Shown here in pieces: positions 10,386-37,385 of a stretch of 64,000 bases of DNA; the first letter of the stretch is position 1, and each line of letters starts with the position of its first letter. Source of the DNA: Ectocarpus siliculosus (lineage: Eukaryota > Sar > Phaeophyceae > Ectocarpales > Ectocarpaceae). Location: the NCBI GenBank assembly GCA_000310025.1, contig FN649734.1, positions 773,762 through 837,761 on the forward strand. Reading direction: 5' to 3'. Both the position numbers and the translations under genes were made by a program. The notes under the pieces were generated by a model. It saw nothing but the letters and a program-made list of their open reading frames with translations, did not search any database and had not been told where the DNA came from.

Positions 10386-10676
10386 CCACAGCATTAACAT
10401 GCGAAATATTTTAGTACACTAGCTGTCATCATGATAGCCCAGTACCCACAATTTTTTTCTAGACTATACTAGTATGGACCACATCTATCACTACTCCGTC
10501 TGAAGACTCCGTGTTTTTTAACACGCGTTGTATGATAATCAGGCCGAGTTGATGGATGTTGTACCAGGTAGGTTAACTCCAATACATGTGGTGTCTCCAT
10601 GAGCCACTCATGGCTATGGCCGCCAAAAGCACATCTTTAGCACAGATGGACTTGTGGCGCATAGAGGGGGGGGTGA

Positions 10677-10689
10677 TGTGGAGGACACC
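10677..10689 (+). repeat. 3' LTR of element A, left piece
   Basis: The 13 bases TGTGGAGGACACC match the first 13 bases of the 5' LTR and follow a G-rich purine tract (10665-10673). Element B begins at the next base. The remainder of this LTR resumes at 16390. Confidence 0.85.
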
Positions 10690-11175
10690 TGTTGGATGTA
10701 CTCACAGCATTGACAGATTATTGCAACCGAGGAATGTTCCTAGAAGATGGAGCGGGGGATTTTGGGGGTTCCGCAGTTGTAATAAATTGGGGGAATGGTG
10801 GTACCATCTTTGCCACATATTATTGTTTTCTGGGTATGCGTGTCAGCAACGGTGTTGGCCACGTGCCCTTGTTTTATTCATCTTCCTTTTTCCCGGCTAT
10901 CACGCCCTGGGCTATCACGCCCGTGCCCATACTACCTATCCACCATCTATCACGCTGCCAGGCTTTCACGCCTCTAGGCTATCACGCCATCACAACAGCT
11001 ATCACAGCACCAGCGTCAACACATCAGAGCTATCACGCTCCGGAACATCATAGATGCGGCGGGTTACCACACCCGTGGGCAGTTTACTGTATTTTATCGT
11101 TGCCGGCAAACTCGCCGCGCGGTTCTTTTATTTTTGCCGTCTACAACTGCGCCGGGCGCACCAAGCCACCCAACA
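10690..11175 (+). repeat. 5' LTR of element B (486 bp)
   Basis: Identical by eye to 15899-16384. Contains a cluster of GCTATCACGCC motifs (about 10891-11040). Confidence 0.92.
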
Positions 11176-12568
11176 CGCTAGCGAAATAGATCAAGAAAGT
11201 GGCTGCTGTGTCTGCGCGAATAAGACGGCTGGAGGAGATGGACGAAGACCTCCGCGGGGACCAGGGACTAGTTCCTCTCCCCACGGGGAAGACAACGGGG
11301 GGGAAGGACGAGGTTCGTTGAACCTCCCCGATGTGGACCAGCAGGGAGGAACGAAAGCAGCCGCGGATGGAGGGGAACAAGATCCAACTATCGCCCTTGT
11401 CGACCTCCTCCGCCGGGTTGCCAACTTCGCCTCCCAGACTCCGGGACATGACGTCCGCTCAGGCACGTCTAGTTCCCAGCCCATAGAGTTGAAGCTGAGA
11501 GAGAGAGTCGAAGTACCTGAGTGGAATGATGCTTTCTTGAAGGATCGAAGTGTGACTGTCGCGTTCCGAATTTTTACGAGTTGTTTCTCAGGGTGGATGG
11601 ATGCAGAGGGTCTTGAAGAGATCATGAGAGGAGAAGAGATTCCTGTGGGTTCGTTGCACGTCGATAAGACTTGGTTGCGGCAGAGGTATGGCGATGAAAG
11701 TGTTCGAAAGGCCACGAGAGTCTGGATGTGCTTGATCACGAAAATCAACGTTCAACCTATACTAGACCAGATACTAGCTTCAGAGAGTCCACAAGCAGGG
11801 TGGAGAGTGTTTCAGTCCTACTACACTACAAACAGGACGCATGAGAGAGAAATCCTGGACGGCACTTGGAACTGCCTTAGACAGAAGCATGGAGAGACTC
11901 TGGTCGACTACTGGGGAAGGGCGAATACTGTGTGGATGCAATTACAGTCTTGTGGGGACAATCGAGAGGAGACGTTAATGTCGAGACACTTTGCACGTGG
12001 CTTGCTCCCAATGTACGACGATGTCAAAGACCGTATTCTGTTCCACCCCATGCTTTCGAGAGGTACTCTGGAAGAGACGCTGAGGCTGGTCGAGCACGAG
12101 CAGAGGATCAAACGGAGGTGTGGGGAGGGGATCGAGGACACGAGGCATGCGCCCGTCGCTGCCGGCGCAGGCCGGGACGGCGGCATGAGGAGAGCAGCTG
12201 CTGCGGGAGCGGATGGCGGACCATCTCATGAGCAGAGAGGTGCCTTCTTCTGCCAGGTTCACGGAGCGAACTCCTCCCACAACACCCCAGACTGCCATAA
12301 ACTTCGCAAGGACTTCTTGTTCCACTACAACGACTTCATGGCGTTCATTCGCGAGAGGGACGGTATGCGGGGACCAGGTTTTCCTCAGGCCGGGGGGCAA
12401 GAATCGGGGCGCTTGTCGGGCGGATCATATCGAGAGCAGCTGCACCAACTCGACCAAGGGGCAAGCTGGGGTCGGGGCCGCCCGTTCTGTCCCCGTTCTG
12501 CAGGGCCCGACGCTGATGAGCAGCGAGTCTTCAACGAGGCCTTTAGCACCGCTACTCAGCCGGCGACT

Positions 12569-12621
<53 letters not shown>

Positions 12622-13420
12622 CATCGGCGCTAATCCAACGACCTCTGCCTCCTCGACGGCGACCCCCTCTCCACCTCCGGGCGACACTCCTCCAGCAAGT
12701 GGCGCCCCTCTTCGTCTCTTCCTCACACGTAGTGTGAATTCTCTAGGCGAGTCTGATTCTGTGTCTGGAAATGAGATTAGAGTTGTTAGTGATGGGGAGG
12801 TGTCTGGTGTTCCCGTTGCTGGTATGTCTGTGCCTGATGTTCCTGTGGTTCCTGTGGTGAAGCCTGCTGTGACCTTTCAAGCCCCGGTATGGCACACTAG
12901 GATGTCAACACCCAAAGGTGGTGAGCAGTTGCAGGGAGACTCGGGGACGAGAGCGGGGATGTTTGATGCGAGGGAAGGTGTTGCGTCTAAGTGTGATGTG
13001 GCTGTGTTGGGTCGTGCCGAACAAATGGATGTTGACGGTTTCCACCACCGCGCTGGCTACTTTCCCCAACCCGTTTTGAGTTTGACTGACAAGCAACAAG
13101 GGAACACCCTCCCCCAGGGAGTTGGGACCCGGGGCCATCGCCGCTTCGCAGCCCGCTGCCACCGCTGCGCCTTGGCCTGCAGCCGCCGCCGCCGCCGCCG
13201 CCGCCGCACCACCGCCGCTGCCGCCAAGTCCCGGGGCACCCGTGCCGCCTGCATCCTCGCCGGATGTCGCCGCGCTGCCGGACCCGCGGATGACTGCGAC
13301 GAGGACTACCGCCGCTCCGCTGCCCGCCGCTGTTACTACCGCCGCGCCGTTGCCGACACGCAAATCGGTGCCGACCTCCGAGGCCGATGGACCACATCCA
13401 TCTCCGACGGCGCGTATTGA
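11054..13420 (+). mobile_element. Gag-type open frame of element B (788 codons)
   Basis: The open frame begins inside the 5' LTR; the functional start is probably further in. After a basic and acidic lead comes a capsid-like helical domain (about 510 bases in), with EWNDAFLKDRSVTVAFRIF, WRVFQSYYTTNRTHEREIL, GTWNCLRQKHGETLVDYW and RHFARGLLPMYDDVKDRI, the pattern of retrotransposon gag families in which the protein packs the element RNA. It is followed by CQVHGANSSHNTPDCHKL, a zinc-knuckle-like Cys/His motif, then a poly-Gln run of about 17 residues, and a long Pro/Val- and Ala/Pro-rich tail. I cannot place it firmly with Ty1/copia or Ty3/gypsy. The frame looks open throughout. Confidence 0.75.
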
Positions 13421-15898
13421 ACGGCAAGCCGATGATTTGGCCTGGGATGATACGGACCGGTGAGCTGGGGGAAGGCGAGCTGGGGGGCGACGAGATGGAG
13501 GGCGGTGGAGAACAGGATGTTTGGGAGGGGTGCATGTGGGAGATCAAGAACAACCTGCTAGGGGTCGCCCCTCCGAGCGGGGCGCTCCGTTTGGGCTCGT
13601 GACGCGCCTTGCATCGCGCGACGACATCGAGTCTGATCTAACAATGTGGGTTTCGTGTTTAGTTTAGTTTTTTTTGCCTTTCTTTCTGGCAGCGCGTTTT
13701 ACTTTTGCACTGGTTTTTTCTTCTTTGTTGCTGTTTTTATGTACATCCAGAATCATGGGGGGGGGGATGTCATGTGTGACCATGATTCTAGAGGGCATGA
13801 ACAGCAATCGATTTGTTTTTGTTTCCCCATATGAACAGCTACCTTTGCAGGGGGGCTGTCTCCATGTTTGTTAGTTGGCATTTTGATATTCGCGGAGTGT
13901 TCTTGCATGAACTCTGGAAATGTAAGGGGTATGTTTCGGGATGTGACAGCGGGGGGCTGTCTATATGTTTGTTTAGTTTTCTATCCGTTTCGTGGACAGC
14001 AACGGCGGCACCGATTTGCGTGTGCGCACTGTTTAGTTTGGTGCTCAACGACTATACTGGAGCAAGGAGTTGGCAGGAGTGATTGTTAGGGCCTATGTGC
14101 TTTCCGAATACTCGTTTCTGTCGTCCAAGAAATTGTAACATTGTTTCGTTTGAGTTTTTGTGCCTACTCTTTGAAGCTGTTTTCCTCAGAATTGTCCGTC
14201 CCCATTCCGATGTTTTTCTGATGCAGCGCTGCCGCTTGTTTGGTATTTGTCTGAGAATGGTTCTGTGCTGTTGACGGTTTGAGATAATTTCCAGAGAAGG
14301 ATGCATCGCCCAGCGGGGATGGAAACCACGGGCAACGGCGGTTTAGTGACAGATGTATGCGGGTTTGTGGATCCGGAATTGTTTTTTTGGTTGGTTTTTG
14401 GTTTTGGCTTGTTTTCGGCGTTCTTTCGGATTTGATTTTGCGATTGAAATTGCACCTGCAAGAATATTTGACGGCATGAAGGCTGCGTTGAAACTGTTCA
14501 GAAAGGATCATGATGATGGAATAGGGTTATTGGTTTGAATCCTTGCGGCCATGTCGCGAAGGCCGCTACTATGGTTGTGCTTGTTGTTTTTGTTTTTTCC
14601 TTCTGCGTGTGGCATTTTTTTTAGGTAGAAGGCTCTATCTACATTGTTGTTGTCCCCTGTGTGTTTGGCGCGCCTCTCCATGTACCATCGGCCAGGGGTA
14701 ACCCCTCTATTTATATAAAATGCTATGTCTTCGATGCTGTTGTCAATTGTCATTGGGGGGGGAATTGGTGTGTCATGACAATTAACTACAGCAATGTTAC
14801 GAAGAATGGAATGTTTCGTCTGTTTTCGATGTTCGATTTGCAGAGTTCGGGATTTGACAATGCAGGTTGCGATTTTGGGGTTGTTTCCAGTACCCAAATG
14901 TCACAAGATGCGTTTACCAAGTAGAGGGTTGATCCCTTCACGTCTGGTGTTCGGAGAAGGGGGGCCGCAGCCAGACATGCATGGGTAGGGTATGCAGGAA
15001 GAAAATAAAAGGTATTGTAGGAAACTGAACGAACGGAGGTTTGTTTGTGTTTGAGGAAAAATAATGAAAGAAGAAGGGGGGCCTATCTTTGTAGCACTCC
15101 ATGACTCCAATGTACCTCGCGCTGTCAACCACGCAGGCAGGGCACGTAGCGATGTCACATGTTTCAAGGAGATTTTGTTTCTGAGGCAGGTTTGGTGTTG
15201 CTCCCATGTTGCTGAGGTATTCTGGTTTGTAATTTCATCGTGTTTGTTGGACATTGAATTCAAGATTGGCCGATAGAAAATACTCGAAAGGGTTTTTTTG
15301 TATTAATGGTCTTCGTGTTGTTATGAGGATGAGGTATTATTGTGGAGTCGAGCATTTTTGTGCAATCATGATTCTTGTGCTACGTGTGGATTTGAAGTCT
15401 CCTCGGAAAGTGATTTGTCCCGGACGGTGTTGGATGTGTTTGCATTTGTGTTCGTTTTCATTTGTTCCTGATATAACCCATTGCGGTTGTTTCCACGATT
15501 TGAGTTTTGGATGATTTGATATTGGGAATTTGAAATTCATGAGCGACCGATGGAAATTGTTGGTGGTGTTCCTGGTTTAATGGTTTGGAACCGATGGGAA
15601 TTGCAATCAAGTGTTTCTGGTTTATTGGTTTTTAGTGAATGTTTTGATCTTTGGAGATTCTGGATACAATGGAGACCGATGGAGATTCTGGTAGTAGGTG
15701 TTTCTGGTTCGTTTGCGACAAATGGAAGTTCGAACTAGTCTCTCTGGTTTAATGGTTTATGGTTGTTGCAAGAGGATGGGAGGAGAAACGACTGTTGCAC
15801 AATGACATTGATTTCTGGAGTTTTTGGGATGGGTTTCGTGTGATGCATAATATAAGCAAGTTCGGGTATAATCTTGACAATGCAGCGAGCAGGGGGGC

Positions 15899-16384
15899 TG
15901 TTGGATGTACTCACAGCATTGACAGATTATTGCAACCGAGGAATGTTCCTAGAAGATGGAGCGGGGGATTTTGGGGGTTCCGCAGTTGTAATAAATTGGG
16001 GGAATGGTGGTACCATCTTTGCCACATATTATTGTTTTCTGGGTATGCGTGTCAGCAACGGTGTTGGCCACGTGCCCTTGTTTTATTCATCTTCCTTTTT
16101 CCCGGCTATCACGCCCTGGGCTATCACGCCCGTGCCCATACTACCTATCCACCATCTATCACGCTGCCAGGCTTTCACGCCTCTAGGCTATCACGCCATC
16201 ACAACAGCTATCACAGCACCAGCGTCAACACATCAGAGCTATCACGCTCCGGAACATCATAGATGCGGCGGGTTACCACACCCGTGGGCAGTTTACTGTA
16301 TTTTATCGTTGCCGGCAAACTCGCCGCGCGGTTCTTTTATTTTTGCCGTCTACAACTGCGCCGGGCGCACCAAGCCACCCAACA
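15899..16384 (+). repeat. 3' LTR of element B (486 bp)
   Basis: Direct copy of 10690-11175, preceded by the purine tract AGCAGGGGGG and followed by the target duplication ACACC. Confidence 0.92.
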
Positions 16385-17509: not shown

Positions 17510-19286
17510 GTATAGTGGTATTGGTCGGTTGAGGCCTACAGGTGCAAAGCATCGTGCGTGTTGGGATTGATGCGCCAGAGTGGGGAGTGTTCGGCGTTTC
17601 AACTTGGTTGCTCCAATTGGTTTCACGTACATTGATGTTTTCAACGTGTGTGTTTTGCTTGTATTGTGTTGAACCCCATCATGGATGGCCAGACAAGACA
17701 AAACATAATTCATTTTACTTTGTTTGTGTAGTCCGCCTGCACACAAAGGTAGGGTGCGATCGCCGAAGGCCTCGTTGTCGCAAGGAAGGACGATCAAGTG
17801 TCAATGCACACGTGATGGGCAGACACGTTTGTATTAAGAAAAAAAAAGAAAAAAACGTACATGTACGTATTGTGCAAAATTCCGGTTGTGATTTGTTTTA
17901 GAATCATGATCATCCGACCACAAGTACTTCTAACCGGATCTTGAGTATGCGTGTAGGTTTCTTGCTGATTGACAAGCCGTCCGGAACGAACAATACGCCG
18001 TCTGCGGCTCCCCCATAGCACTGGACATGTACTGCTGTAGGTCTTGACTACATGTACACTGTCAGATCCCGAACTCTCCTCGGTATGGCGTCATGCGAAA
18101 GGATGACTGCTGTGTTGTGTTCCTGGCCAAGCAGCACGCAAACAATTCACAGAATGTCACCATCAGCTTCCCAGCAACAACCTGTGCTGTTTCTACTGCT
18201 GTACAACAACAACACCAGACCACGCCCGGACGTACGAGCCTAAAATAAATCGAAATTTACGAACTTGAGCACTGTTTGAGCCGGTGAGCTGGACACTACA
18301 GTATATTCACAGCGACCATTCGTATGCATAGCATGACCCTATTTTAGAAACAAGAACCCCAGCCTCGGCCGAAACTATGTAGAGATTCCTACAATACATA
18401 CGTGCGGGCGCGTTCTGTATTTTTGTAAATAGCTTCACCACGACCATCCCTACACGTACAGAAACAATACAAACCCAACCGTTACTCTGATGATCTCAAG
18501 GATCAAAGCTCTTTCTGCCCTTCTCCCACACCACCATCTCTGCTTCCACACCATTATCTCTGACTTTCCGGTTCAATCTTCTCCCAAAATGGGCGGCACT
18601 TCCACTCTTTGCGATATTTTCTTTGGGTACCACCGCCGTTTTTCATGGCTGAATGGCAGGGTATGAGCTACAGTATGGTATGTAGTCTCACACGCGATCT
18701 CCGAAGAAGTATCGAGATCCGCATAGATAGAGAAAAACCGAGCGAGATGTGATGAAAATCGCCTATAATCTGCTCCATGCTGTGAGTGGATCATCCGCCC
18801 ACCCAACCGCAACACACATCAGCAGCCAGTAAGCGAGTAGGGGAAAGCAGGCATCCGCGAGAGCAGACACAGAGAGAGTGTGAATGTACACTCCTCCGAG
18901 ATGTGTCGCGAAAATCCGGAATTCGCGAAGAGGAGGAAGAGAAACGCGCTGATCGCTGTTCACACAGATTAAAGTTCAGATGCATGTGCCGACATGGAGA
19001 CACTTATGAGTGGGGGAAGGTCGCAGTGAAGGGCCCCCACGCTCCTTTCGTGAGTATTGTGTGTCGGCGTCGCGTTCGGATTTGTGTTGACGTTTCACCC
19101 GAAACGTAACCGCTTCTTCTTGTCTCTCTCTAGTCTCGTGCCTGGCGGGGGTATTCGGCCCACCGTTTCACTGTGACATGTTTATTCTCCGACGACGAAA
19201 ACCCCCGCATCCAATCCGTCGTCCATTCGCTGCTGCTTGCTGCTGGTCCTCGACGATTGGCAGCGTCATTCGTGGTTTGGGGGACT
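17510..19286. other. Spacer without a recognised gene
   Basis: Open frames here are short on both strands and show no splice pairing or family similarity. Contains A-rich runs (17840-17855) and otherwise plain sequence. It would hold the promoter of the downstream fusion gene, but no TATA-like or initiator element could be singled out. Confidence 0.45.
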
Positions 19287-22200
19287 ATGCGATTCCCAGA
19301 CACGTACAGGCGCCTGTACACCTACGGCTGGCTGGGTTGGCTGCACCTTTCGATATGTGGTGCCTCCGGATCGCTTGATGTCGGGTCTAGCATGGAGCAG
19401 CACGTTCTTGATTCTGGTAAGGCTTTAAATCCCGACACTCATGACCATTTAGAATTGGTTTGGAGGTCTTGGGTGGCTTGTAGTGCTATGCATCCTACAG
19501 CAGCACACACCAAGCACGAATTTTCCGCATGCACCGAAGCGAGCGTTAGTGCCAGGCGCACTTCAATAATTTTTCCGCGGACGAATGAATCCCGTACCTG
19601 CGAGTGTGCGTTGTTGTCGACCAACGGAAGTCTTTGGTGGTCGGCTGACGATACTGCAGCCCTCACCCGAAGGTCAACCCCTCACAAATCCTGGATGCAT
19701 CCAGCTGTAGAGCTCATGAACAGCTGCTTAATTCAAAGCAATTGTTGATCTGGAAATATTCACATCTCTGTTCACGACCGCTCCTCGTCCACCACCACTC
19801 TGGTGCGCAGGATGGTCGCTGAGTTCTACGTACAGTAGTAGCGGTCACTTCCTCTCTGGAGCATCTTATGGGTTTTTCGGACACCAGTTCCGATTAGGTG
19901 ACAGCGAGATCCTTGCGCAACCACGACGCCCTTCGCTTTCCCTGTTGCAGCTGTTTGCGCTGATGGTTCACCCGGGGTCTTCTACATGGCGACGAACACG
20001 TCATCGACAGACTACGTGATGTTCATTCAAGGAGGGGGAGCGTGTGCATATGATGAAGAGCTCTGTGATGAGTAAGTAGGGACGCGTGGTTCGGTGCAAC
20101 CACGAAGAATAGAGCTGCACCTGTCAACGATACAGCAACAAGCAAATCGAAGGGTGGGAAGTTGGCCTCTGTTGGGATTCGGGCACCTCCTTAGTCATGC
20201 AAGTCGCAGGAAACACAACACGTGAAGCCGAATGTTTTTTAGGGAGTGTTGAACACCGTGCGCATTTTGTCCTGGTTGCCAATTTACAGGTATCTCGACG
20301 ACCGCCCGCAGGCGTTCACCTCGACCGGGCTACCAGATGCAATGAACGCCCACGGCGTGTTGTCGGACGACCCGGAGGAGAACCCGTTGTACAGGTAGGG
20401 GGGGCGAGACGGGGTTAGTATACTGCGTTCCTTGCCTGGGATCATATTGGTTTCGACGTGGTCGTGAAAAATGCCGTACGTCTTCCTTCGAGATCGCTGA
20501 TCTGAGACCCACATGCATGGCTTTGTACGGCCGCATCAACCCCTCTCTGCTCGATTCTCTTCTGCAACAATCCACCATCGTGCAGCACATACAACCGAGT
20601 TTTCATCCACTACTGCACCATGGACACGTACATTCTGCACTCTGATTCTGCCGATGGCACACTGCAATTTCGCGGAAGGCATCTACTAGAGTGAGTGTGC
20701 TATGGTAGGCTATCTTCCACCTTGAAAGTGAAAACATGGAGAGTCATGAGAAGAATGACGTCGGAGGTTCATCATGTGTCGTTATCCAATGTCTGCTGTG
20801 CGTAGTGTTCTTGCACTTCATTCATTCCGTCGAACGCCCAGATGTCAGTTCGTTATCTCGCCGTATCCGTGCGAGGTTTACGGGCCTGCGAGGGTTTCTG
20901 TATCCTACGGTACGTCCTATCGGTGAAGCGATGTGAGGTATTATTGCTAGCGACAACCCATTGAGTTGTTCTGCTCTCTGGGGGAAAACGTTTGGCGCGC
21001 GCTTGTTTCTGTGACCACAGTAGCTGTGAAGCGAAAGCCAACAAAAAACACCCCCACGCGTGTCAGATGTCCTATAGCCAACCTACCACGGGCCACCTTC
21101 ACAGCAATATTTTTTTCGATGAACGTTCTCATTTTTATGTCGCTCCGGGCGGGGGATTTTCGTGTTAATCCAGGGAAACGCTCCAGACAGTGCTCGGAAA
21201 CGTTTCTGCAACAGCGACGGTGGTCCTGGTAGGCTCGTCTGCAGGGGGAATCGGTGCTTTCAACGCGGCCACGTGGCTCCTAGAATCGTTCGATCAGGTC
21301 AGAATACTCGCGCTACACGCAAGGCTCGAGCATCGACGGGAAGGGGGGGGTGGCAAGCCATGGTGGTATCACAACTCCATGCAACCAACGTTCAACAACA
21401 ATAGCTTTGATGCGAAGCAACGCGTGGGTTGCGGCCCGTTTGTCGGAGCAGTTGGGTTCGAAATCGGTGTAGAGGAGAACAGTCGTTTCCAAGAGTCGCG
21501 GGGTTGGCGTTATATCCTGCGGGAGTCCATACACATGCTGCTTGGATGCTCCAGGCAGACGTACTGGTGCTACATCCAAAACCGCACTTTCACTACTCGA
21601 ACAAGATCGAGAGCACGTTACTGTTGCTACTGTACTGTCCGCCACACGGCTTCTCGAGTAGCACTGCCGGCGTATCCCCCCTCGTTCCCCCCTCCCCTTG
21701 AAGTGCCCCCCAAAGTACCGTTGAATCGCTGTGCATGACACAGGGTTCACTATTCTTTTGTTTGAAAGCTCCGACCTTGCTTCTCGCACAAAGGGATCCG
21801 CCCCCCAAAAAACACTGCCTTAGGCGTCGCCGGGACGAAGACAACGGATACACTACGACTACGACACCTTAGCTGCAACACCTCCGCCTGTATGCGGTTG
21901 TCATTTTCTGCGTAGCCGGCGTCGATCTTCGGACAGGAATGACCGTCCAATGTCTTCCGGACTCCCTACCTTCCCTTCAGTCTATTGTCATTGATGGACG
22001 GCTTTCAGAAGTCATCAAGACCGCCGTATTCCCGCCTAATTCCACGGTTGCCGAAGCAGGTCTCAGAGCTGAGCGTCGTTCTCGACAGCTCCTTCTTTTT
22101 TGATGTCGACGGCACTCTCGGCGACATGTTGGCGCCTCTCGCCGCGGACCCCTCCATGGCCTACAGCACCATCTGTGCTGAGGTGAACTCGCGTGTGTGA

Positions 22201-25200
22201 CCAATCGGTGTCATCGACCTTGGCCCATCCCTGCCCAACTACCTTCCCAGCACGGTCGCGGTGTGATGGTTTCCCATATCAGATAGTTTCCCACATCAAA
22301 GCAACTTTCTCCATTGGTTCACTCAACCGTCCTCTTGATTTTGTTACTTCGTTCGCGTTCGCGAACACCCACACAGGATTTCAACGGCGGCCCGTGCTGC
22401 TTGCAGTTCAACTGCATGGTGCAGAAAGGGTACTATCCGACCGCGGATGATCGACTAAGGGGTACTTTTGTCTTATCTACACTTCAGGATGCCCTTACGG
22501 GCGCGCTCATTCTGGAGCGTGGCAATGTCAATGTGAGGAGCGCCCCGAGCGTAGGCAGCTACACTCACTTTGCGTGACAGTGGCGTACGCATCGCTTGCT
22601 GCACCAAGGCCTCCGCTTTCCAGGAATGTATGTTTTCAATGCCTTACCCTGCTTTTACGAGTTGACCCCGTCGGACCCGATCCGGACCGCCGATTGCGGG
22701 GCCCCACGCAGTTGTAGGCTAAAACACGTAAACTGGAAACCTGTCGCGCCGTTTACATCTGTCCGTTGGCCTTCTTCTATACAGAGCGAGGCTGTTGAAA
22801 GCGTCTGGGACGTGGCTGCCTACGCAGGGCAAACTGAGACATCTCTTCGCAACTTGGCCGCACTCTACAAGGCGGTGAGAATGGGATTCTAAGCACCAAT
22901 GATCCCCCACGACGCTCAGCTCCAATACGACAGTATCAGACAACTCTCTTCGGTAACACATGCATAGGTGGTGCAAGGTTATTTGTCGTCGCCATCCATA
23001 GTACCTGGTGATGTCACACGGCGCTCGTAAGAGAACAATACAAACGAGCGCGAGGTCTGTGCTTCAAGAGGAAACAAATTGGCGTTTAATCAGAGTTGGT
23101 GCCGTCACACGGTGGTTCGAAGTGCACAGCAAGAAGCCCGCTTGTAGACGTTTCCATCCGCGTGTGTGTGTGCACCCGTCAATGGCATGTAGGAGCTGTC
23201 CTTCTTCGCTCCAAGCTGCATCGATCACGGGCTACTACTTGTCGGCGACGTCGAACTATGGATGTGCCCATCGGGGACCGAATCATTCGACAACGTGAGA
23301 AAAACTTGATGTCACAGTAAGATAAGCAGCGCTTCCTTCTGTCAAGTCTGGTTGGTGTGCTGGGCTCTAGGACCAAGACCGTTAACCGCGGTAGGCCTCT
23401 TCGTTAACTCCGCGCATGACTTCTCTCATGTATCCAGCCAAAAGCGCGGCTAAGATCGTAGATCCTGAGACACACCGTCAAACACCACACCGCCCGTGTT
23501 GATGTGGTGCGGTGAATCGTGCCTGGCACTTGTGTTGGAGAGCAGTCTGTCTACAGTGTTGGAGGCTGACTGTCATCGCATGCGTTGGGGTGTCATCAAC
23601 AAATCAAGCGGGGCGGATTGGTGGTGTCTTCTTCCGGTCCGATGTGTTTTGCCAGGCGCCATGATCTTCAATCAACCCGTTTTGAATGCTCTTGACGTTA
23701 TCAGCCATGAGCCCGGTCTCCCATTCATAGTAGAATCCTCTGTACGCCTTCCCTCGGCGTGCTATTCAGGTCGATGCTCTGTGCCTTACCGATGAAGAAA
23801 CTGGAGCCTTATCTGGGGTAGAGTTCCAAGTAACTCTGGATGACGTTCGCCTACGCTTGGCGGCTGAGATTTCTGTGGACGCATGGGAGCGCATCCAGGT
23901 AGAGAAGCGGGGTGGTGGGTTTCGTCCTCAAGATTAAAGGGGGGAATTGGTAACGTGCTTCAGAGTTTTGATATCGGTGGCTTCCCACCAAGCTTCAATG
24001 TAGTCTGAACACCGACATCGAAACAGTCGCAACGTGTAATTGGAACGTGTAAACCTCGACCATGATATTCGCAAGAAAAATATACGATAAATCAGAACTG
24101 AAGGCTTGCTGCGCCATGATGGATCGCTAGGTTTCATTTCCGGGTAGTGAAACATGGTGCAACGTGGTGCATCAAGGTGATTCATGAGGTTCAGGAGAGA
24201 AACCGAAAAGCGTTAACAAGGAAATGGTTCTGACAATTGCTGTAATATTCATGACGCACCATGAGGATCTCGGTATAAATCATGATTCCCATGGAGTCAT
24301 TTTTCGATGTATTTTCTCTTTTTCATGGATCTCGTGAGACTGCTCACGGGAAACACGAGCACAACACAAGACATATGTCCTCACTGAGCATCATGTCGTA
24401 TCATGGTGCACCATGGCACCATGTGCCAAATCTCCATGACGTGACCCGACACTCTTCAACATGTGGGAATCTCTCTTTTGTTCTTGTGGGACAACGTGGC
24501 CACGCCCACGTACTGCAGTTCTGTACCGTTGCGTCCAACGGATAACTATCCGCAATGATTGCTTGTCATCCACTGGGTAATTATTCAATGATCGAAGATT
24601 GACGGAATAAGTGTAAGAACGGCCATGGAGCAGTGGTGGAACGGGCGTGGCGACGCTAACGAGCAGGCAAGTCCACTTTGGTGTTCCACATGTACAGTAG
24701 TCTAGAACCGCCGCCTCGGTGCGTATTGTTTTGTCCTTTCTGCATGAAGCAGATACGGCTGCAGCTTCTCTGTTCTTCTGCTTGCTCCTACGCGAGAGCC
24801 CCAGAGCTGATTGTCATTGATGATGGCCAAGCTGCTACCCGACAATCTTGCCTACCCTGCTATAACATAGTATGGTTCCCTTCTTCGCCATGGGTGTTGA
24901 TGGTTTTGGACGATGGGTGTTTTGGTTGATTTTTCGACGGGCATCATGTTCTTCACTCTTTGAGCAGGTGGCTCTCTTCGACTCATGCAACGACATTAAC
25001 TGCAACCCAACCTGCATGTCTGAGCTGATACCGGGCACACGAGATGAGAGCGAGAGTACGCTGGTATGGACCCTGGTGCTCGCAACCTGCGCTGTGGCCT
25101 TGTTGGTACTTGGAGGCGGTAAGTGTTCAAGCTTCTATTACATAAGCCCGCGCCGGAGCTGCCGGTGCTGTACCAAGCCTTGTTGGCGCTTCTGTTGTGG

Positions 25201-28200
25201 ACTCGCTCCTATTCGATGCTCGTCATCGAATACTCTGCCGCCACAATTAATCTTGCCCAAAGCGTCTGCAACCAACCGGTGAAGCTTTTGGGCGAGGCAG
25301 TCGTCAAACACAAACTGCATTTACCTTATCGCATCACCTGTATCACGTCTAGGTCAATAGACTGTATTCGGACAACTTGTATCGAATTTCGCCCTATGCT
25401 CTATGCTATGCAGGGCTAATCGCAGTGGTGTGGGGTGTACGGTGGAGAAACCGCGCAGTAGGCATTGTGACATCTGCTTTGCTAGAAGAAAGCCGAAAAT
25501 CCCGAGACAAACAAGCGCCAAGCCTCAGGTACGCCCAACGCACACCAAGTGTTTCCTTGTAAAAATGATCGCCGTTCTGGCCAACATGTCTCATCCCAAT
25601 GCGAACCAAGTGGTTCCTTGTAGAAAATTATCACTGTTCTTGCCCGCTCATGCAAATCAAAGGTGTCGACTTAAACCTGCGATCCATATCTACGTCACCC
25701 GGCCATGCATATTTTTTTACCTTGCTGGTTTACTACCGCCCTGTACCACCCAAGGCAAAACCTGGGGTTCTGTCCGTGTTTCGGGACGATTTAGTCCAAG
25801 TTGTTCGTGTTGAAAAACCGGCGACTTGTCCATGATTCTCAGATGGAAGCGTACAGTGAAAAATCAACCTTCCCCGGACCTTATCAGAATACCATTCATA
25901 CGTTGATCCGGGTCTCTTTCTGATGATGGACCTGATCGAATGGCCAACAGCGATCAGTACAGGCATCTGTCGCTGACATCACGTGGTCATGGCCCTGATG
26001 GCAAGACTGAATCCGTGCTGGAATGGAACAGCCTTAGCTACTGGCTTCCGCCGACACACCGGTGCGCACCTTCGGTCATTGGCATCTTTGACTGTCACCC
26101 GCACAATCTTAAGAGAAAATCGGTCGCCCACCATGCCATTTATTGTGTAATGAACCCGGGCCTTGTTGCAATAGCAGTCGATGGCCCACGAACAACGCTC
26201 GTCTTCTAAGAAAGGCCCACCCGTTTTTTTTTCGATGTGGAAACGCGCCCCGTAGACGCCTGCGCTGTTTCGACGCCCTTCCGACAAGGTGAGGCTGACA
26301 GTGGCGACAAAAAGGCTTTTGACAAAATTGAGGGAATGAGAATGGTCGAGGTTCCTGCCAAGATACTTCATGCACCTCGTGGTCGAAGAAAAACTCATTG
26401 TCCACGAGTTCGAATGCAAGCCCACCGAAGGCCTAGAGTCGGAGATGGGATGACGGAAAGGAAATATTCAAGTATTCGCTCACACGACACCCTCAAAATA
26501 TAAAGTCGTATTTGAAGCAAGAGCATTGTTCTCGATACGCTGCTCGGTAAACCTCGGACATGGACGGGAGAGCGAAGCCCTGCTGCTCACCTTCTTTCTT
26601 CACATCGTTTCTGGCACATTTTCATTCCCTTCGTTCGTCTCGGTTCTACTCCAAACGACATGAACCGAATTTCGGGTTTCAATATGTAGACTATTGGACT
26701 GACTAAAATATGGGGGGAAATGAGGGAATCCATCAACCACACAGGATTCTCTACCACATTTCATGAATCAACACACTGGACACCAACGGAAATGAGTCGA
26801 GTTCGGCACTAAGGGTCAGGATACTGACACGAACTGGAGGACAACGAAAAAAGAGCGCGTACCACCTACAATGACAACATGAGAGGGAGTATTCCATTTG
26901 AGTACAAATGCGGCCTGGCCCGGTGATCTCGTGCTCGTTGTCGGTGTCGATCCTTAGGGTTTCGTTTCGTGCCCGCCGCCTTCTATGCTTTATTTGCCAC
27001 TTGCTCTCCACCTGTTCCGCACTATCCTTTTGTGTTCGAACAGTCGCCGGTGGCGGACACGTTCGCCATCCGGCATCGACACTGTCCCCGAAGAAAAGCA
27101 GCTGCTTCACAACATGGATGGAGAAGTCCCTAAGGGATCCTTGTGCGCGTTGATGGGACCTTCAGGCAGTGGCAAGTACACATAGAGAGTATTTCAGCCA
27201 ACAGCCTGTCACCGTTGAATACTCAACATCCACACGATCCAAAACACAAGGATGGTCTGCATCGCTTCGCTTCGCGGGGTGTCTTGCGGCCGTCCACTAC
27301 ATATTCTCTTCCCTTTAACTGCTTCAGGTTGCGCGTGCCAACGAATGCTCAGGATCTCATGGATCTCATGCTTTTCGGTGCGTTCATTTTTGTCACACTC
27401 AGGCAAGAGCACTCTGCTCGATCTGCTCACCGGAAGGAAGGCGATCGGTCGGTGCAGCGGGGAGTTGATGTTCAACGGAAAATCTATCGCAAACCAAAAG
27501 GTTTCTCGAGTTGGTACAGGGAGGGGCAAGGGAAGTGGGCTTGGAAAAAAAACAAGGAGTCTATTATCCGTTGCCCCATGTAAGCACGACTGTCCCACGA
27601 GGCATTCGAAACTGGTAGAGCCATGTAGGCCAGACTCGATCAAGCCTTGCCGTACGTCCACCACCCGGTCGATACACCGTGGCCCTGTGCGCTGCCGCAC
27701 CCTTTCTCAACGACCCAGGGCTCATACATCTCCAAGTCCGGCTACATGCGGCAGCTTCATATCCCCTTCCTGGAAGGCCTTTCGGTCTTGGAGAATTTGG
27801 TGTTTGCTGTCGTCCTGAGGTACCCGGGCACCCTTGAGGTGCAAACAAAACGAATTGAAACGTGAGTCTTGGACTGGAACCTGACGTTTCTGCCAGGTAA
27901 AACTTGCGACACATCGTCACTCCTCTACACTACCTACCACGCACGGAGTCACGCGTATCTGGGGAGATACATCAAACCGACGTGTGCTGTAGCATGTCTC
28001 TTAATGGTCCCGTGCTGTTGACGTCCACGTCTAGGGCAATCAAGCTAACGTCCCTCGAGGGAAGCATCAACACCAAAGCGGGCGGCTTGAGCGGGGGACT
28101 CAAGCGGCGTTTGTCCCTCGCCCTAGAACTCTTGCCGGACCGCCGAGTTCTGTTCTTAGGTGAGAAGTCGCCGAAAAAAGTGATGCTTTAGAGAATACCG

Positions 28201-31200
28201 CTGGTTGTTGGTGATACCCTGTGACCTTGTTGTATGTAGGTGATATTTGGTATTATTCGTTGTGGTCATACCTAGTATCATTTGGGAGAGTTGTTGGTGA
28301 AACTGTTAAGAATACCAGCAGAAACTGAGTAGCCGTGAATCCACCGAGCAAGTTAGCACTGTGACCAGGAATACCATTTGTTCCACGAAGCGAACTAGAA
28401 AGTGCATACTCTTCCTTTCGTCTGGCATTTTGTTGGCAGCCTCTTTTAACATCAGGAGCAGTCTCGATTATTTCCCTCGAGTGAACGAAGAATATGCCCA
28501 CCCGATTGTTCTGTGAATCAATGTTGCACGCAACAAACACCGAAGACGAGCCGACCTCAGGACTAGATGCCACTTCGTCTCTGGAGCTCATGACTATTCT
28601 CAAGCGCCTGTCGACTAAGGTGTGATGCGGGGAGAGTTTAAGCCAACTCGACTTACGTGTGATGTATTGCATTCTAGGATTCAAACATGAACGTGATCAT
28701 GACCGCCTTTTCATATAGAAATGGTTGGTTCACTCCCCGCTATCACGAAGCGATCGTCACACAGTCTACTTCCACGCAGTACTTGATGGGGCACTTTCTG
28801 CTTGGAACAGAGTCCTTTTGTTCTTTCGTGTACTTCCGGGGCGGACTGTAAACATCACCGTGTCATCACGGCACTTGTCCATTTGAATAAGTTCAAATGG
28901 GTTCGCCCGCTTCGTTTGCCACTCTTGTTCTCGACTTGAACTATCAGTTCTTGGTGTTACTTGCTGCTGCCGGCTTTCTCGAGCTCGGTACGGTAGTCGA
29001 TGGGCACACAGTATCCATGGCCGGGTGCTATGCCGCTTGCTTTCAGTCGCGCGTCGTACTTCGCGCGCTTGTTTGCTAGAGCCTGGCGCGTGGAAGAAAT
29101 TGCTTCCGAACAGCCCACATGCCCACACGCCGTACGCACATGTTTCGCCGTACAGGTTACTTTGGTTGTGGCCATTCATCAGCCTCGACCGGAGCTTTGG
29201 CTGCTATTTACCCACGCGATCCTTCTCAAAGATGGCAGAACTGTATACTGCGGCCCGGCAGATGAAGCTCTGAGCAGTATCACCAGGTGGGAGGTCTGGG
29301 ATGTGCAACTAGAAAAGGCGTCATGATTAATTGGCGACAGATTTTGCTGTCGGCCGCCTGTGACCGGCAGGAGTCGCAATTTTGAAGTCTTGCCCGCTTC
29401 TCCTCTTGTTTGGTCCTTGGAAATACATTGAAGTTTCCATGGAGTATACCACTATTGCGTGAGCGTCTCTGGCGGAAAAAAACCCGCCCATTCATTTTCG
29501 GATGAGTCGTGCAATTTTGCGTCCAAGCTACAGTTTCAATGCCTCCCACCCCATTATCTAGGACTTTCCAGCAGGGTTTACCACTCGAGCACGGTGGTCT
29601 TCATGACGGAATTCGAATCTTAGATAACGTTCTTGTGGTGCATGACATGTTTCGAGAGTTCGGCCTTGGCAAGAACGAGACCTTAACCCCTTCAGCGACA
29701 AAATACGTCAACCTACGAAACAGCCTCATTTGCACAGCTTAACACCGGCACAATCATGTATTCAGCTGTCAGCTACGACGAGGAACGACAATACACTATA
29801 CCGGGTTTCGTCGCAAGCATAGCGCGTCCGCCACCTTCAACTTCACGGGAGTGGCTTCCGTCATGGCTTCCGTGAACGGTTTTGGAGGTTTGTGGGCGCC
29901 TTGGGAAAACCACCCAATCCCTTCCGTAGCAGTGACAAAAACTTCAAAAAACAATTAACTACCAAGGTTTCATAGGCCGCCACATGGACAACAGCTCAAT
30001 GCACATTGCTTCCACGGCTCCAATGGAGCGCGATGGAATCTCTCACCAAAACCGTTTCCTCTGTTCACCCTTCCTATTCAGGCAACGCGTTGTGTGCATG
30101 TAGAATCATGCTGCTGCCGCCATGGCTAGAAGACATAGGTTATACTACGGCGTGGCTTGGAGCAAACCTAGTACCGAAGACGTACCACGTACCCAATTTA
30201 TTCTCATTGCTGCTTAGATGTTCAAAATATTTCTGGGCGTTGGTGCGCGCGAAATATGTCGTCGTTGTTGTCGTTGTTGTTGTTGTTGTTGTTGTGGTTG
30301 TTGTCTTCACATTAAAAGCCGTTCCGTTCTCTCTACCCAGTACCTTCTTCTGTCCGTACTACAGTATGACTTGACGCGGTCGATTCCCGTGGTCACAGGT
30401 TAACTTACCCAAAAACTTGTATACGAAAAAACGATTGACCCGAAGGGTCCGCAAGTCAGTGTAAGTCACCGACAGATAGTCTGGGACACTCCGCTCGCCT
30501 CTACACGCTATGCGAGGCGACCATAGACTGGAAAGAAAAAGAAAAAGAAAAAAAAAAGAAGAAAGACAAAGGGAACAGATGGAGAGGAGGGAAAGAGAAA
30601 GAGAAAGACACAGGAAAAGACACACGCCAGAGTAACTATCGTAGCGAACAAACAAACAAACAAACAAACAGAGCAACACAAGACAACACAAAACAACACA
30701 AAGCGGGCCACGCGAGCAGCAAATGCACGTCATCGTCCGTTTGGGGTTGGTGCAATGGTGCGGTGCCGGGGGGGGGGGTGTACTCCTCATGTTTTGCGTG
30801 CCTTAGCGGTTAGACCATTGACCACGCGTCCTCGAGAGGACGGAGCATTGTTCCCACAGGACCGATCACCGATGGCCAATCGTTCCTTTAAGTCAATCAA
30901 GGGGTTCAATCCAGCACAGCATTTCGCGCCACTCGGTTCCTGTCTTCCCTCGCCGTCTCTTCCGTCTGCTGCACCCCTCCCGCCCCAGCGGTTGTTAGCT
31001 TAGGGTTAGGGTCATTAGATGTTGAAAAAAATATTGTGGCTTTGTAATATGTTGACTTCATACTTCCGGGTGCTCGGGAAGAACGAATGACCCACCGCCC
31101 TTTCGTTTGTAACTTTCTTGACTACACAGGAAATATTTTTTCCGCGCAAGAGATTTCGCGATACCCTGACTCGTACTGACAATATTGTGCCCCCCGCATC

Positions 31201-34200
31201 ATCTATTTCTTGCCTGAAAGAGTCGAGAGAACAGAAAGTCGACAGAGGAAATACAACAACGACCGTATACTAAGGGGAAGGCCAAACAACAAGCGGTAAC
31301 TGCAAGCTGTATTGCGAACCTCCCCTCGTCTGCTCTGTAATTCCTCTTCCCTGAACGGCTCACAAACAAGGCTTCAGGACGCAAAACATGAAAGACACGC
31401 TGAAAGGAACCCCCTTTTTTCGTCTCAGGTTTCTGCCAAGGTCGAACTCCGCTCAGCTAGTACTGCCAGTCGCGATGGAGGAAAAGACCAACACCGAAAA
31501 ACCCGAAACGGTCTCTTCGACGTCGATCGGATCGCGAGAGTCGTTTCCGACGATCGAGAGCATCTTCGCAGAACTTGAACATGCTGACGAGAGCTGCCCA
31601 ACGTGAGTTGCTCGTTAGTTCTCGCTACTCTGTTGTGAACGATGATCTTGGGTAGTGCTTTCGCGCTGGAGTTCGAGTCTGCACACTGGACATCTGTGAC
31701 CACCGAAGTGAGACGTCCATTCTGCAACGTCCGACGGACCACAATGATGTTTCTCGAGTTTTTTGGAGATATTTCGGAAGCCGTTACCCCGTGTTTCCCG
31801 CTATCCGAAAGTTCCCACTGCAGGAAGACTCCCATTCGTCGAAGTCATGAACGTTTCCCCTGCTATTTCTCGGATAACCTTCGCAACGAAGCAGCACCCT
31901 GCTTTACGAATTTGCAAGGCTACAGACTCTCCAAATGTAGAAATTATACGAACGTGGACCGGGAACTTGGATTCCCTTTTCAGTTATTCACGAGTTTTTC
32001 AATTATCGAAATACACGTCCATGTCCCGTGTGAAACGAAACGCGAAAAAAAAAAACATCTCAGACAGAGGGAGCCCACCATTAGCAACAACCTCCTGGCT
32101 GGCACATTGCAAGGACACACAAGCATTCCGGACAGGATCCTGGACATCTTGGTGAGGCGAGCGCAACCTTTGCGGTACGGAATATGTCTTTGGGGTGCCT
32201 TGGGGAGGGTTCTTCTGGAGTACTTCGGCATGCGCCACAGTCATGGGCAGAGGGTCTATCAGCGTGATCCTCGATCCCGCCCCAAAATCGTAGCGGAAAA
32301 TTGCCAATTCATATTCACGCTCTGCGTTTATTTAGGTAGAGATGAACAAATATGTGATGAAGCACGGAGGCATAGAGTTCTAGTGTTGATCGGTCCTCGA
32401 GCGGATCATTGTCGATATTGTGTCATGGCTGCGACTAACACATGCGAGATTGGCTCTCGTACGTCCTAGTAACATGTGCAAGCCGCTCAGACGTTCTGCC
32501 TGTTGCTACGTGCTGTTTTGGTGTTTCAAGATGGCGGTTGATGTGCTACACGTGGAGAGCATCAGAGCAAGCGACGGCCCTCTGCGCGGGACGAGTTCTA
32601 CAGAAGAAACGGCAAAGATTTTCACAAATGAGACGCAACCTACTACTCAGGCAGAAACGGCCATCGAGAACGACGAGACTAAGGTGAACCAGGTATTTCA
32701 TCACTTGTTGCCTGTATCGGGAGCGCTGGTACGGCCAAGCGTGAGCCATGACACACGATAGACGCCCTTCCCGGGAACCTTTGTTTGGGGAGACGCTGGC
32801 CGCCGTTCACCTTCACAGACACGCCAGACGATTCTTGGTGCACCCCATGAAACATACGAGGTGCACCGTACATCTCTTTTCTCCTTCGTGTCTGGCTCTG
32901 GACGGTTGCTAAACATGTTTTCAACGCCGACCGTGCTCAGGGAAGGCACGTGGACCGTCCGACCAAGGCAGACCCCGCCAAGCGAGAGAAAACCCCGGCG
33001 TGGAAAATCGCAGCGGCGTTGATGACACGTTCCTTACAAAGCGGCTACGCCAAGTAAGTCACAGGTAGAGCCGTCAGCATAGTCGTTACTCTCACCGTGT
33101 GGACTTGCACACGATATTCGTGCTTCGCAAACCATCGAATGACGCTGTGACAGGCACAAGTAGCGTTTCTCGCAATTCCACCGAAACGAAACTAAGCCCC
33201 GATAAGGAGTGCCACCCCATTGTGCGCATGCAGTTCGGTCGAGTTGCCGTAAACTAAGCTGCAAGTTGAATATCGTTCGAAAAGGCTTACCAAACTGTAC
33301 TACTTCGCCCACCTGCCGTACACGATGGCAGGTTCCTCCCACCCAGAGGCTGACGTAGAATTTGGCAACGAAAGTAGATAGGTGCTCGGGCGTAGAAGCT
33401 ATGCATCTACTACCGAGAGAGAATGCACTCCTCAACGCAGTGGCTCCAATGTGCTAGTCCCTAACGCGTGTTGACGTATTCGGATGTTGTCATTAGGGTC
33501 TTTGACTTTAAAGCAGAGAATTGTAGTTGAATTTTGGGGGAATCGGATAGCCGCTATGTTTCAATACTTTTCTTCGAAGGCTTCCGCTCATATCTACTGT
33601 TCATATTTTCCCCACGGCACAACTCTGATCCGTAGTCACGTAGGAGAATCTCTCCCATGTGTCGCATCTCCTACGACGATCGCTCGTGGACTGTTTTCTT
33701 GACGGGGTGGGCAACATCTCGTGCTGCCGGCAAACAAGACAGTCAACAAAGCAGGAAGGACTTGACCCGCTGGGACCCACCGTTGTGGTAATGGGCTCTT
33801 GAGAATCGTTGGCCTTGGCATTCTCACCAAGTTGCTATGATTTTCAATTCCTCTGCTTGAACGTTTCAACCTCGTTTCCTCGGGCACCCGTCCTCCAGCG
33901 AGCTCACGTTGTCGACTATGGTGTTGGGTGGTTCTGTGGCCTTCATCGCCGGCGCTCTACGGTCTGCCGACGACAAAGCCACCGCTGTCCACATGGTTCT
34001 CAGCGCTCTTATCAACGCCGTCCTCCCAGTGCTGCTCACATGTGCGTGGGAAAAATCGTACCTCGTTCCGCTTCGTCCTTGATGTCCAAAGAGTCATGTG
34101 GGTGGAGATAACAAGTCGCATTTCTTCTTTTCGTACTTGAGGTCCATGAGTTCGTCCGACACTATGATATTGCTCCGGTTGAGGACACTACGAGGGCCGA

Positions 34201-36245
34201 CGTGGAGTATGTGCATGCTCCAACGCGATGACCGCACATGCCGTCGTCCAGACGCACCCCTGCTGGTGTTAAGAATGAGCGAGGACTGGGCTCTGACAAG
34301 CGTGGAAATGGAAGACAGCTTCTATGGTCCGGCTTGTGCAACCCTTCGGGTCGTCTTCGACCACCTGTCCATAGGAGTGATATGCTCATTTCTCGTGACC
34401 TTGGTCATGCACCTCATATTTTGGTACCCAATCATATCTGGTGAGTGTAACTGCGTTTGTCGTGACACGCTGTGTTGTGTCGTGGCACGCTGTGTTGTGT
34501 CGTGACACGCTGTGTTGATTCATAGGGCAAGTATTTCATGGCGATACCATCAGTGGGATCATTTTCTCCACAGTTAGGGACATTAGATTCGACGTCGAGC
34601 TTGATTATCCTCGTTTTCGACGTATCGCACAAGAGAGTACGACGACCCCACCAGATTTTTGCGCTGATGCTTTTTTTCGTAAGGCTGTTGAGCGGTGCTT
34701 GTAACACGTGTTACAATCCGCTTAACCGTTTACTACGTTCCAAACAATCGTGGCAGAATTGCCGGCCTCAGCGCTAGGCATATATGCCCAGCTGTCGAGT
34801 GCGCTGATTCTTGGAGCGTGGACGATTATCGGGGTGATGGACTCTATGATCGTGTTGGGTGTAGGGCTAACCCAAGCTTTGGCCATTTCGAGTGCCTTCA
34901 ACACCATGTGAGCCGAGCGTGGGTGGGTAGTGTGACCGGTAGCGTTCTTCGAGTACTGTCATTTCACATTGAATGATTATTCTTCGAACATCTGTCACCA
35001 CGACATCGCTCATTTTGCCAAGTAGCAAGTGTTGGATGCACATGTTGTGCGCACTGGGCTCCTTCATGAGGAACATCGGCGGACAATGACGCACCCGACC
35101 AGCACGGTCAATGGAACTAAATGACATTTGGCTGTCGACAGACAACCCTTTTCGTCCGTCTACCGTCGTTCCTCTGTAGATGGTCCGTGTTCTCCGGCAC
35201 GGTGCTGCTGATTTCGACTCTTCCGAGCTTACTCAAGATCATCACCTACTCTTCGCCTACTTGTAAGAACACCGTTGTCTTGTTTCCGATGGGCGGTCTC
35301 ATGCGGGATACACGGATAACCGCTTTGGACACTCTATTCACCAGCTTCGGCAAATCACATACGCATCACTGGCATAGTCTTTGTGAGTCTTTGTTGGCTT
35401 CAGAACTCGGTACATCTGGCAACCCAACCCCGTGGCCATACGCCTGTCGTGTTCGCTCTCTTGACGGGACTCCTGACAATATTTGGGACAGACTGGTCTG
35501 TCACATTTGCTCTCCGCATCCTATTGGACGGCCTCGACAGGACATCCTCCTGTAACTACAGTGGCGCACTTTGTGAGTACGTTTTCACATCACTGCTTGT
35601 CAAGATCGGTCCAATGGTTTCGAGCACGAGGTTCGAGGATCGGTGACCGTGATGTTGTGCATGGATGTTTTGTGCGATGGTTGGATCAAGGCTAAGGGCA
35701 AACAAACCGGACGTCCCCGAGTCGAATTTCACCTTACGTTGTTCCAATACCCAGCCAGATAACTTGCAAAGCGGCCAACAAAGCGGTCTTGTTCACTGCT
35801 GCACGTTTCTGCCTGTTTCGAGCAGATTCTGGATGTGCATCGAATCTATTCTCAACGATGTCGAGGCTCATTCTGTCGTACCAGTCGGACGCAGGAATAG
35901 CCTCATGACGAACGTTCTTGATTTTGGTGATCCTGAAAACATGATACCGCTGAAGCCATCATCTTTGACAGCCGTCACAAACCGTCCGGGTTGTTTACAG
36001 ACTGCACGGCAAACTACGGCGACGTCATCGCGCATGCCCTCGATCTACACCTGCGGGAGACCGGCCTCAACATGGTTGCCATGGTCGGGTTCACAACCGC
36101 TGGCGTGGTGTTGCTCATCACAATCGTGAACATCAAGAGCCGTCACGCCCACATCCTTGATGGCCTCGGCAGCCAAGCTATCGTCAAGAGTGCTACCGAG
36201 AGCAACAAGCATGGGAAAGATCAGACCGCGACGGACGGATCGTAG
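19287..36245 (+). CDS. Pectin acetylesterase/Notum-like ectodomain fused to an ABCG transporter
   Basis: 31 exons with mutually compatible phases: 19287-19416, 19951-20071, 20290-20394, 20586-20690, 21174-21297, 22060-22182, 22377-22461, 22624-22874, 23193-23294, 23770-23898, 24598-24666, 24968-25118, 25414-25528, 25963-26061, 27044-27171, 27403-27500, 27719-27861, 28035-28159, 28546-28619, 29156-29286, 31429-31602, 32085-32151, 32531-32692, 32941-33053, 33899-34041, 34252-34440, 34757-34907, 35180-35262, 35345-35382, 35404-35572, 36001-36245; about 1313 aa. Residues ~44-465 match the pectinacetylesterase/Notum family: CADGSPGVFYM, IQGGGACAY, nucleophile block GSSAGG (Ser ~176), SFFAPSCIDHG (His ~360), terminal CNPTC. 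One membrane helix (~480-506) follows, then a basic linker. The ABCG ATPase has LEWNSLSYWL, Walker A GPSGSGKST (607-615), signature LSGG (711-714), Walker B with DEPTSGLDA, and VAIHQPRP. The remainder is an ABCG-type membrane domain. The substrate is unknown. The start Met, exon 8 length and small exon 35345-35382 are the least certain parts. Confidence 0.78.
30260..30405 (+). repeat. (TTG)n-tailed dispersed repeat, copy 2
   Basis: TTG-type triplets, then TCTTCACATTAAAA, CCGTTCC, CAGTACCTTCTTCTGTCCGT and CCGTGGTCACAGG, in the same order as copy 1 near 2806. It lies in the long intron 29287-31428 of the fusion gene. Confidence 0.6.
30765..30865 (+). repeat. Dispersed repeat with GGTTAGACCATTGACC core, copy 1
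   Basis: A G-run leads into TGTACTCCT, then GCGGTTAGACCATTGACC, then GACGGAGCA and a distal CAGGACC. The same series of blocks occurs at 58085-58200. The core resembles a tRNA D-arm region, so a tRNA-derived SINE is possible, but no full cloverleaf or B box was made out. This copy is intronic in the fusion gene. Confidence 0.5.
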
Positions 36246-37385
36246 ATGCTCCTACGTCGTCCGATAGCCGTTTCCCTACCAAGACGGAACTCGAATTCTA
36301 AATAACTACAGTCGTGGGGTAATATAAGCCGTAGCGTAGCGGCGATCAGCGAATTGACTTGTGCAGATGTATTGGACGCGCGGTCTTTAAAGTACGTTCG
36401 CCGGTGATGGCAGCACTGGTGAAAAGAACGATTCCGACCACCGCCGCAAAGAGAGAGTTTGCACTGCACGGCCTCTTTGTTTAATGGCAATAAACGTCTC
36501 TGGAGAGTGTAAATAGTGCTGTTTTTTTTCTCTTCCCATGCACGCGCGGTGTGCGGGTTAGCCAGTCGAGGGTGTCAATAGGACTACAGTATAGGACTAA
36601 GGTTGGAGGCATCCATAGCCTAATTGAGCAGGAGTACCTGCCATTGCTGGGAATACGAGTGGTCATCAACGTGGCCTTCAGGATAAGCAGGCAATAGCAG
36701 CCTCCCAAACCACGGGTTTCAATATCGTATCCATCGGGGAATGGCCTCCCGTTAACCGAGGTAGATGGGCTGCTATTTCAATCTTGACATCCAGAATTTG
36801 AGGTTGCCGATCAAGGATTGGACTTCATTTTTAACGGAATGTGCCGCTTCATAAGTCGGGAAGTACCCTTGGAGACAACGAATCCATACTTCATTTGGGC
36901 GCACCTCACGTGCATGTAGCGCTGTAGTTTACTTCGCATACACTTGTAATTGTAGGAACGCCTTGACTCCTAAATCGGCCATTGGCTTGTTTCCCTTCGG
37001 CAAATCACGTTTTGTTTCCATGCTGTGGGACATGAATTGATGTGCAACTCCTCGACGAGTTTCGTCGGCGTTGCGTGTCTGAAGCTTCCCTTGATTTTTT
37101 TACGGGAAGCCGCAAGTTCTTACTACGGTAACACTCTCGAGTACGAGACACAGCAAAAAAAAAAAGTGACTGGAGAATGAAGACGTCCAGACCGCGATGA
37201 AGACCTTGAAACTATAGTGCCGACGATGACTAGGCCAAAGAACTAAATCCGAAGAAAACCTACCATGACAGGATACATACAAAAAAGACGTAAACGCCAA
37301 AGAATCACACGAACAAACGCCTCAAGCAGTTCTCCCCGATGGGCTGAGCGGAAGCATGTTGGTCGTTTGGCGATAGGCTTCCACC
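36246..37385. other. 3' flank of the fusion gene, no recognised gene
   Basis: Follows the TAG stop at 36243-36245. No further exon with coding character is evident. Some AT-rich and homopolymer tracts (T-run near 36520, A-run near 37155). Confidence 0.4.

Follow-up and report, generated by a model that had tools for sequence, protein, structure and literature searches.

Does a single gene of Ectocarpus siliculosus encode both an esterase and an ATP-binding cassette (ABC) transporter? The question is raised by positions 19287-36245 on the + strand of a 64-kb window of contig FN649734.1 (assembly GCA_000310025.1, positions 773,762 to 837,761 of the forward strand); the window is the whole stretch of DNA analysed, and all coordinates below refer to it. 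In this region 29 exons and 28 introns were modelled, which together give a single 1205-residue protein in a frame without stop codons. A sequence-only reading of the window had proposed that this protein joins a pectinacetylesterase/Notum ectodomain, one membrane anchor and a full ABCG half-transporter. We consider it probable that a single protein is made from one gene, and likely, with somewhat less confidence, that the esterase of this protein faces outward.

Domains of the predicted protein

Two families were detected far above their cut-offs, and far beyond chance, by the Pfam scan of residues 1-729. The pectinacetylesterase/Notum family (PF03283) was found at residues 39-368, covering positions 17-351 of the 355 of the profile (E 3.2e-30, 105.9 bits, cut-off 26.6), and the ABC ATPase family (PF00005) was found with its whole profile at residues 518-666 (E 2.3e-22). 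Notum chains of the PDB also match the esterase part, the best of them with E 1.1e-22 over residues 37-211. The bulk of the esterase domain is encoded by exons 2-9 (19951-23294, +), located at 19951-20071, 20290-20394, 20586-20690, 21174-21297, 22060-22182, 22377-22532, 22785-22874 and 23193-23294. Exon 10 (24598-24666, +), which encodes a C-terminal portion of the esterase (IDGISVRTAMEQWWNGRG...) and ends in a GC donor, aligned to Notum, and by its reading frame exon 11 (24968-25118, +) encodes the CNPTC end of the esterase.

The motifs GSSAGG (from residue 174), LQDAL (from 272) and SCIDH (from 326) sit opposite the Ser, Asp and His motifs of Drosophila Notum, in an alignment that is weak (E 0.36) and in which the Asp is the least certain. 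Passages of PMC8172013 give Ser232, Asp340 and His389 as the catalytic triad of human Notum and Trp128 as a residue of its oxyanion loop. In the alignment to the solved Notum chains this Trp is not conserved, as GGW of Notum corresponds to GGG and DSGWF to DSSFF. Judged from its motifs, the esterase domain is apparently catalytically competent. The likeness to the Notum/pectinacetylesterase family includes a nearly whole PF03283 profile and counterparts of Ser, Asp and His, whereas the oxyanion-loop Trp of Notum is replaced in the 1205-residue protein. Notum itself is not known to have a transporter part.

The membrane anchor begins in exon 11 and ends in exon 12 (25414-25528, +), which also encodes a basic linker. 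At residues 412-430 this single anchor includes the hydropathy maximum of the whole protein (2.53). It is followed by the basic stretch WRNRAV...EESRKSRDK, which fits the cytosolic side of the membrane, and therefore the esterase would face outward. Exon 13 (25963-26061, +) continues the linker and contains the beginning of the ABCG ATPase region (VLEWNSLSYWL).

The nucleotide-binding domain (NBD) is encoded by exons 14-19 (27044-29286, +), located at 27044-27171, 27403-27500, 27719-27861, 28035-28159, 28546-28619 and 29156-29286. Its signature LSGG, the Walker B within VLFLDEP and the motif AIHQP are kept, and so is the Walker A GPSGSGKST, whose integrity rests on placing the donor of exon 14 at the GC of 27171. 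Among the 180 NCBIfam families matched, the best was the pigment precursor permease of ABCG type (TIGR00955), with E 3e-55 over profile positions 36-291 of 617, which is below the full-length cut-off. The ATPase also matches solved structures of pleiotropic drug transporters (E 6.6e-43) and of ABCG2 (E 2.2e-36), among the best 60 of 569 matches.

Exons 20-23 (31429-33053, +), located at 31429-31602, 32064-32151, 32531-32692 and 32941-33053, are predicted to encode a polar linker between ATPase and permease; they were placed by open frame and phases only, and their boundaries are less certain. The membrane domain follows in exons 24-29 (33899-36245, +), located at 33899-34041, 34252-34440, 34757-34907, 35180-35262, 35492-35572 and 36001-36245. 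Given the exon model, the NBD thus precedes the transmembrane domain in one frame. Hydrophobic stretches were found after the ATPase at residues 911-929, 945-963, 995-1021, 1026-1061 (a length that allows more than one helix), 1070-1091 and 1149-1167. They are compatible with a six-helix permease in the expected ABCG order, and since residues 587-605 inside the ATPase also exceed the hydropathy threshold, the threshold alone is insufficient to define helices. At E up to 10, the part after the ATPase had no match among solved structures, and the permease is divergent in sequence.

The order with the NBD first and the sequence of the NBD are shared with ABCG half-transporters (ABCG1, 2, 5/8, 16 and 25), whereas the 1205-residue protein adds an N-terminal anchor and an esterase and has a divergent permease. 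That the transporter part is a full ABCG half-transporter, as in the sequence-only reading, is less certain: the ATPase motifs and the helix order were as expected, but the permease has no solved relative. Likewise, of the three Pfam families named in that reading, Pectinacetylesterase and ABC_tran were recovered well above their cut-offs, but ABC2_membrane scored below its own (E 0.039, 13.9 bits, cut-off 26.9).

One gene or two

That both domains are carried on a single transcript is a prediction, and it rests on intron 12 (25529-25962, +), the contested junction between anchor and ATPase. The exons at 24598-24666, 24968-25118, 25414-25528 and 25963-26061, as well as the next acceptor at 27044, are exactly where the sequence-only reading had placed them, with AG and GT or GC at their bounds. 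The spliced reading frame also confirmed that phases 0, 1, 2 and 2 of introns 10-13 agree, with no stop between the domains.

Splice sites of the gene model were scored with leave-one-out matrices, which were built from 27 introns of this gene model itself, so that any likelihood ratio derived from them is rough. By score, the donor of intron 12 ranks 18 out of 28 and its acceptor 10 out of 28, and both scores are at least as high as those of intron 12 in seven of the 28 introns, intron 12 included. Unused sites that score as well amount to 1.3% of 1098 GT for the donor at 25528 and to 4.1% of 849 AG for the acceptor at 25963. When two stretches of matching size (95 and 108 bases) were placed at random 20,000 times, with starts outside the gene and with the few draws too close to the window end counted as misses, both sites were as good in 4.6%, and in 1.7% when a phase match (one in three per pair) was included. 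Because this level is reached by 25% of the model introns and by 1.7% of random placements, the splice scores favour intron 12, and with it the fusion, roughly 15-fold. The content of G and C at third codon positions is similar in both halves of the coding sequence (0.644 and 0.663), which also counts for the fusion. The base composition of intron 12 resembles other introns and flanks alike and is uninformative on one versus two genes.

Alternatively, the region could contain two neighbouring genes on the same strand, an anchored esterase ending in ...SLRYAQRTPSVSL and an ABCG half-transporter starting with MANSDQYRHLSLTSRG... Gene models commonly err by mis-joining neighbours, and the signals for such a pair are present in the right frames: translation continuing past exon 12 meets a stop at 25560-25562, and an ATG at 25940, with the closest in-frame stop upstream at 25904, lies in frame ahead of exon 13. 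The acceptor at 25963 is also poor in pyrimidines (0.41; among the 28 introns one is lower and one equal). Yet this acceptor and the donor at 25528 are ordinary for the gene by score and in phase, a combination seen by chance in that same 1.7% of placements. Nine ATGs are found between the alternative stop and the ATG at 25940, which itself has a C at -3 and is preceded by two out-of-frame ATGs, 14 and 17 bases upstream. Furthermore, only 377 bases, from the alternative stop to this ATG, would have to accommodate a 3' end, a promoter and a 5' leader; such a gap would be short for tandem genes, as passages of PMC7784034 give a median of 2293 bases for the intergenic regions of Ectocarpus tandem gene pairs. 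We therefore regard two genes as unlikely.

Besides this stop, this ATG and the pyrimidine-poor acceptor, several points weigh against a single esterase-transporter protein. Exon boundaries were selected in part by the motifs they preserve, as with the GC donor at 27171, picked since the Walker A stays intact that way, and the donor of intron 15 scores poorly (-4.22). The remainder of the esterase, from the Ser motif onward, aligned weakly to Drosophila Notum, and the permease part fell below the ABC2_membrane cut-off, as described above. Finally, no homologue was found in collections of viral contigs, prokaryote genomes and plasmids, non-eukaryote sets in which a single-protein scan can find only close relatives. 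In the viral contigs the search pattern was matched by 4 stretches for the esterase with its anchor and by 13 for the NBD, none of them confirmed; 216 stretches of prokaryote genomes matched the esterase pattern, again with none confirmed, and the esterase had no match in plasmids. The single protein is a prediction from the genomic sequence. For the architecture of esterase ectodomain, anchor and ABCG transporter proposed earlier, the 1205-residue frame, the ordinary splice sites at the junction and the active-site motifs on both sides speak in its favour, but the stop at 25560 and the ATG at 25940 permit two genes.

Gene model, related proteins and the remaining window

Exons of the gene model have a median length of 123 bases and introns of 317 bases. 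Donors are GT in 26 of the 28 introns and GC in the other two, at 24666 (CAG|GCAAGT) and 27171 on the + strand, both with the consensus GCAAGT; the sequence-only reading had not remarked on these GC donors. Exon 1 (19287-19416, +) encodes residues 1-43 and includes the start codon, an ATG with A at -3, and a putative signal peptide; its hydrophobic stretch GWLGWLHLSICGA was read directly and is below the threshold of the hydropathy scan. The stop codon TAG at 36243-36245 ends exon 29.

Two further exon candidates were dropped. One, at 29562 in intron 19, has a phase-compatible acceptor and is without domain support. The other lies within intron 9 at 23770-23898 (+; 43 codons in phase 0-0 between AG and GT) and had COX16 as best Pfam match, with E 0.11; this open stretch may be a cassette exon or may be due to chance. 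With its open frame and preserved motifs, the gene is unlikely to be a pseudogene. Within 19000-37000, the only repeat was a two-copy repeat of 28 bases. No tandem paralogue was seen in the window by tblastn of the whole protein, as the five stretches matched outside the gene all had E >3.

Passages of PMC2848647 describe yeast Adp1 as an ABCG protein that has a single central NBD, flanked on either side by a transmembrane region, and a large soluble domain with EGF repeats, and call its function enigmatic in 2010. According to passages of PMC9426558, members of the Adp1 clade most often carry an EGF domain as their extra sequence. If intron 12 is real, the predicted protein would resemble this fungal group (Adp1p in S. 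cerevisiae) in having a large soluble domain and a membrane helix ahead of the NBD. In contrast, the outer domain is of the pectinacetylesterase/Notum family here and most commonly EGF there, a difference that follows from published descriptions; with E up to 1 allowed, the Pfam scan of residues 1-729 gave 16 families, no EGF family being in the set. The Adp1 group is the nearest known kind, and the protein is probably a new variant of the Adp1-like plan, without being assigned as a member of the group. Because Adp1 already places a soluble domain and one more membrane segment before the ATPase, the plan itself is known, and the element that would be new is the esterase as outer domain. A fusion of pectinacetylesterase/Notum and ABC domains was not mentioned in the literature searched, which comprised Creative Commons-licensed papers only, so that its absence in print is unproven. 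The sequence-only reading, which knew of no described plant ABCG protein with an acetylesterase fold, had missed the precedent of the Adp1 group, whose members follow this plan with an outer domain that is usually of EGF type.

Plant proteins of the ABCG24/ABCG28 type possess an N-terminal region and an extra helix, and we know of no esterase domain among them. They are similar to the predicted protein as long half-size ABCG proteins; the maize proteins with ABCG24 or ABCG28 as synonyms have 883-1112 residues in a table of PMC9409143.

Elsewhere in the window, two stretches on the + strand matched Hemerythrin HHE (PF01814), at 170-754 (E 2.9e-05, 25.0 bits, just under the cut-off of 25.3) and at 812-1324 (E 0.0058), and they are perhaps exons of one gene. 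The region at 10577-16262 (+) looks like a long terminal repeat retrotransposon. It contains a gag-like open frame at 11054-13417 (+), of which a piece alone matched Retrotrans_gag below the cut-off (E 0.00046) and the whole frame matched only Med3 in Pfam (E 0.0095); near-identical translations within 10577-11053 and 15753-16262 flank this frame. Tandem repeats were recognised by eye at 4475-4893, with peptide units of the type GPPCP.QFTHTPRSS repeated within open frames on both strands, and at 55722-56189 (+), with an open frame of short repeated units of the PRLFRVTPQPIP type. Neither tRNA genes nor Rfam matches were detected in the window.

Proposed function of the probable fusion protein

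The predicted layout comprises a signal peptide, a lumenal or extracellular pectinacetylesterase/Notum domain, one anchor, a cytosolic linker, an ABCG ATPase and an ABCG-type permease. The protein would dimerise in the manner of ABCG half-transporters and may export a compound that is hydrophobic or acylated. At the exit side, the tethered esterase would cleave an acyl group, acetyl or longer, either from the cargo as it emerges or from wall or matrix polymers close by, and deacylation at the exit could also prevent the return of the cargo. We propose only tentatively an ABC exporter with a built-in competent serine esterase, in which export and deacylation of an acylated lipid or wall precursor would be one step. 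Confidence falls in the order from a single protein to an outward esterase, then to an active esterase, and finally to an esterase acting on the pump's own cargo.

Provided that the fusion is real, two other functions of the outer domain were considered, both of them rather doubtful. The outer domain may be non-enzymatic and bind an acylated or carbohydrate ligand or aid assembly, as a sensor or a lid. The loss of the oxyanion Trp, the change of DSGWF to DSSFF and the divergence of the second part of the domain, noted above, would agree with such a role, although counterparts of Ser, Asp and His are all aligned. The outer domain may instead work on the cell's own wall or matrix irrespective of the cargo, with the transporter serving mainly as anchor and for location. 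Plant members of the Notum/pectinacetylesterase family deacetylate pectin, and no feature of the predicted sequence links the pocket of the esterase with the transport path. However, anchoring would need only one helix, and the ATPase motifs have nevertheless been preserved.

A recognisable enzyme as outer domain gives a direct clue to the cargo, namely a compound that bears an ester. Should the fusion be real, ester probes could be used to test which substrates transporters of this type carry, and a pump for export would have evolved together with an enzyme for ester cleavage as a single protein.

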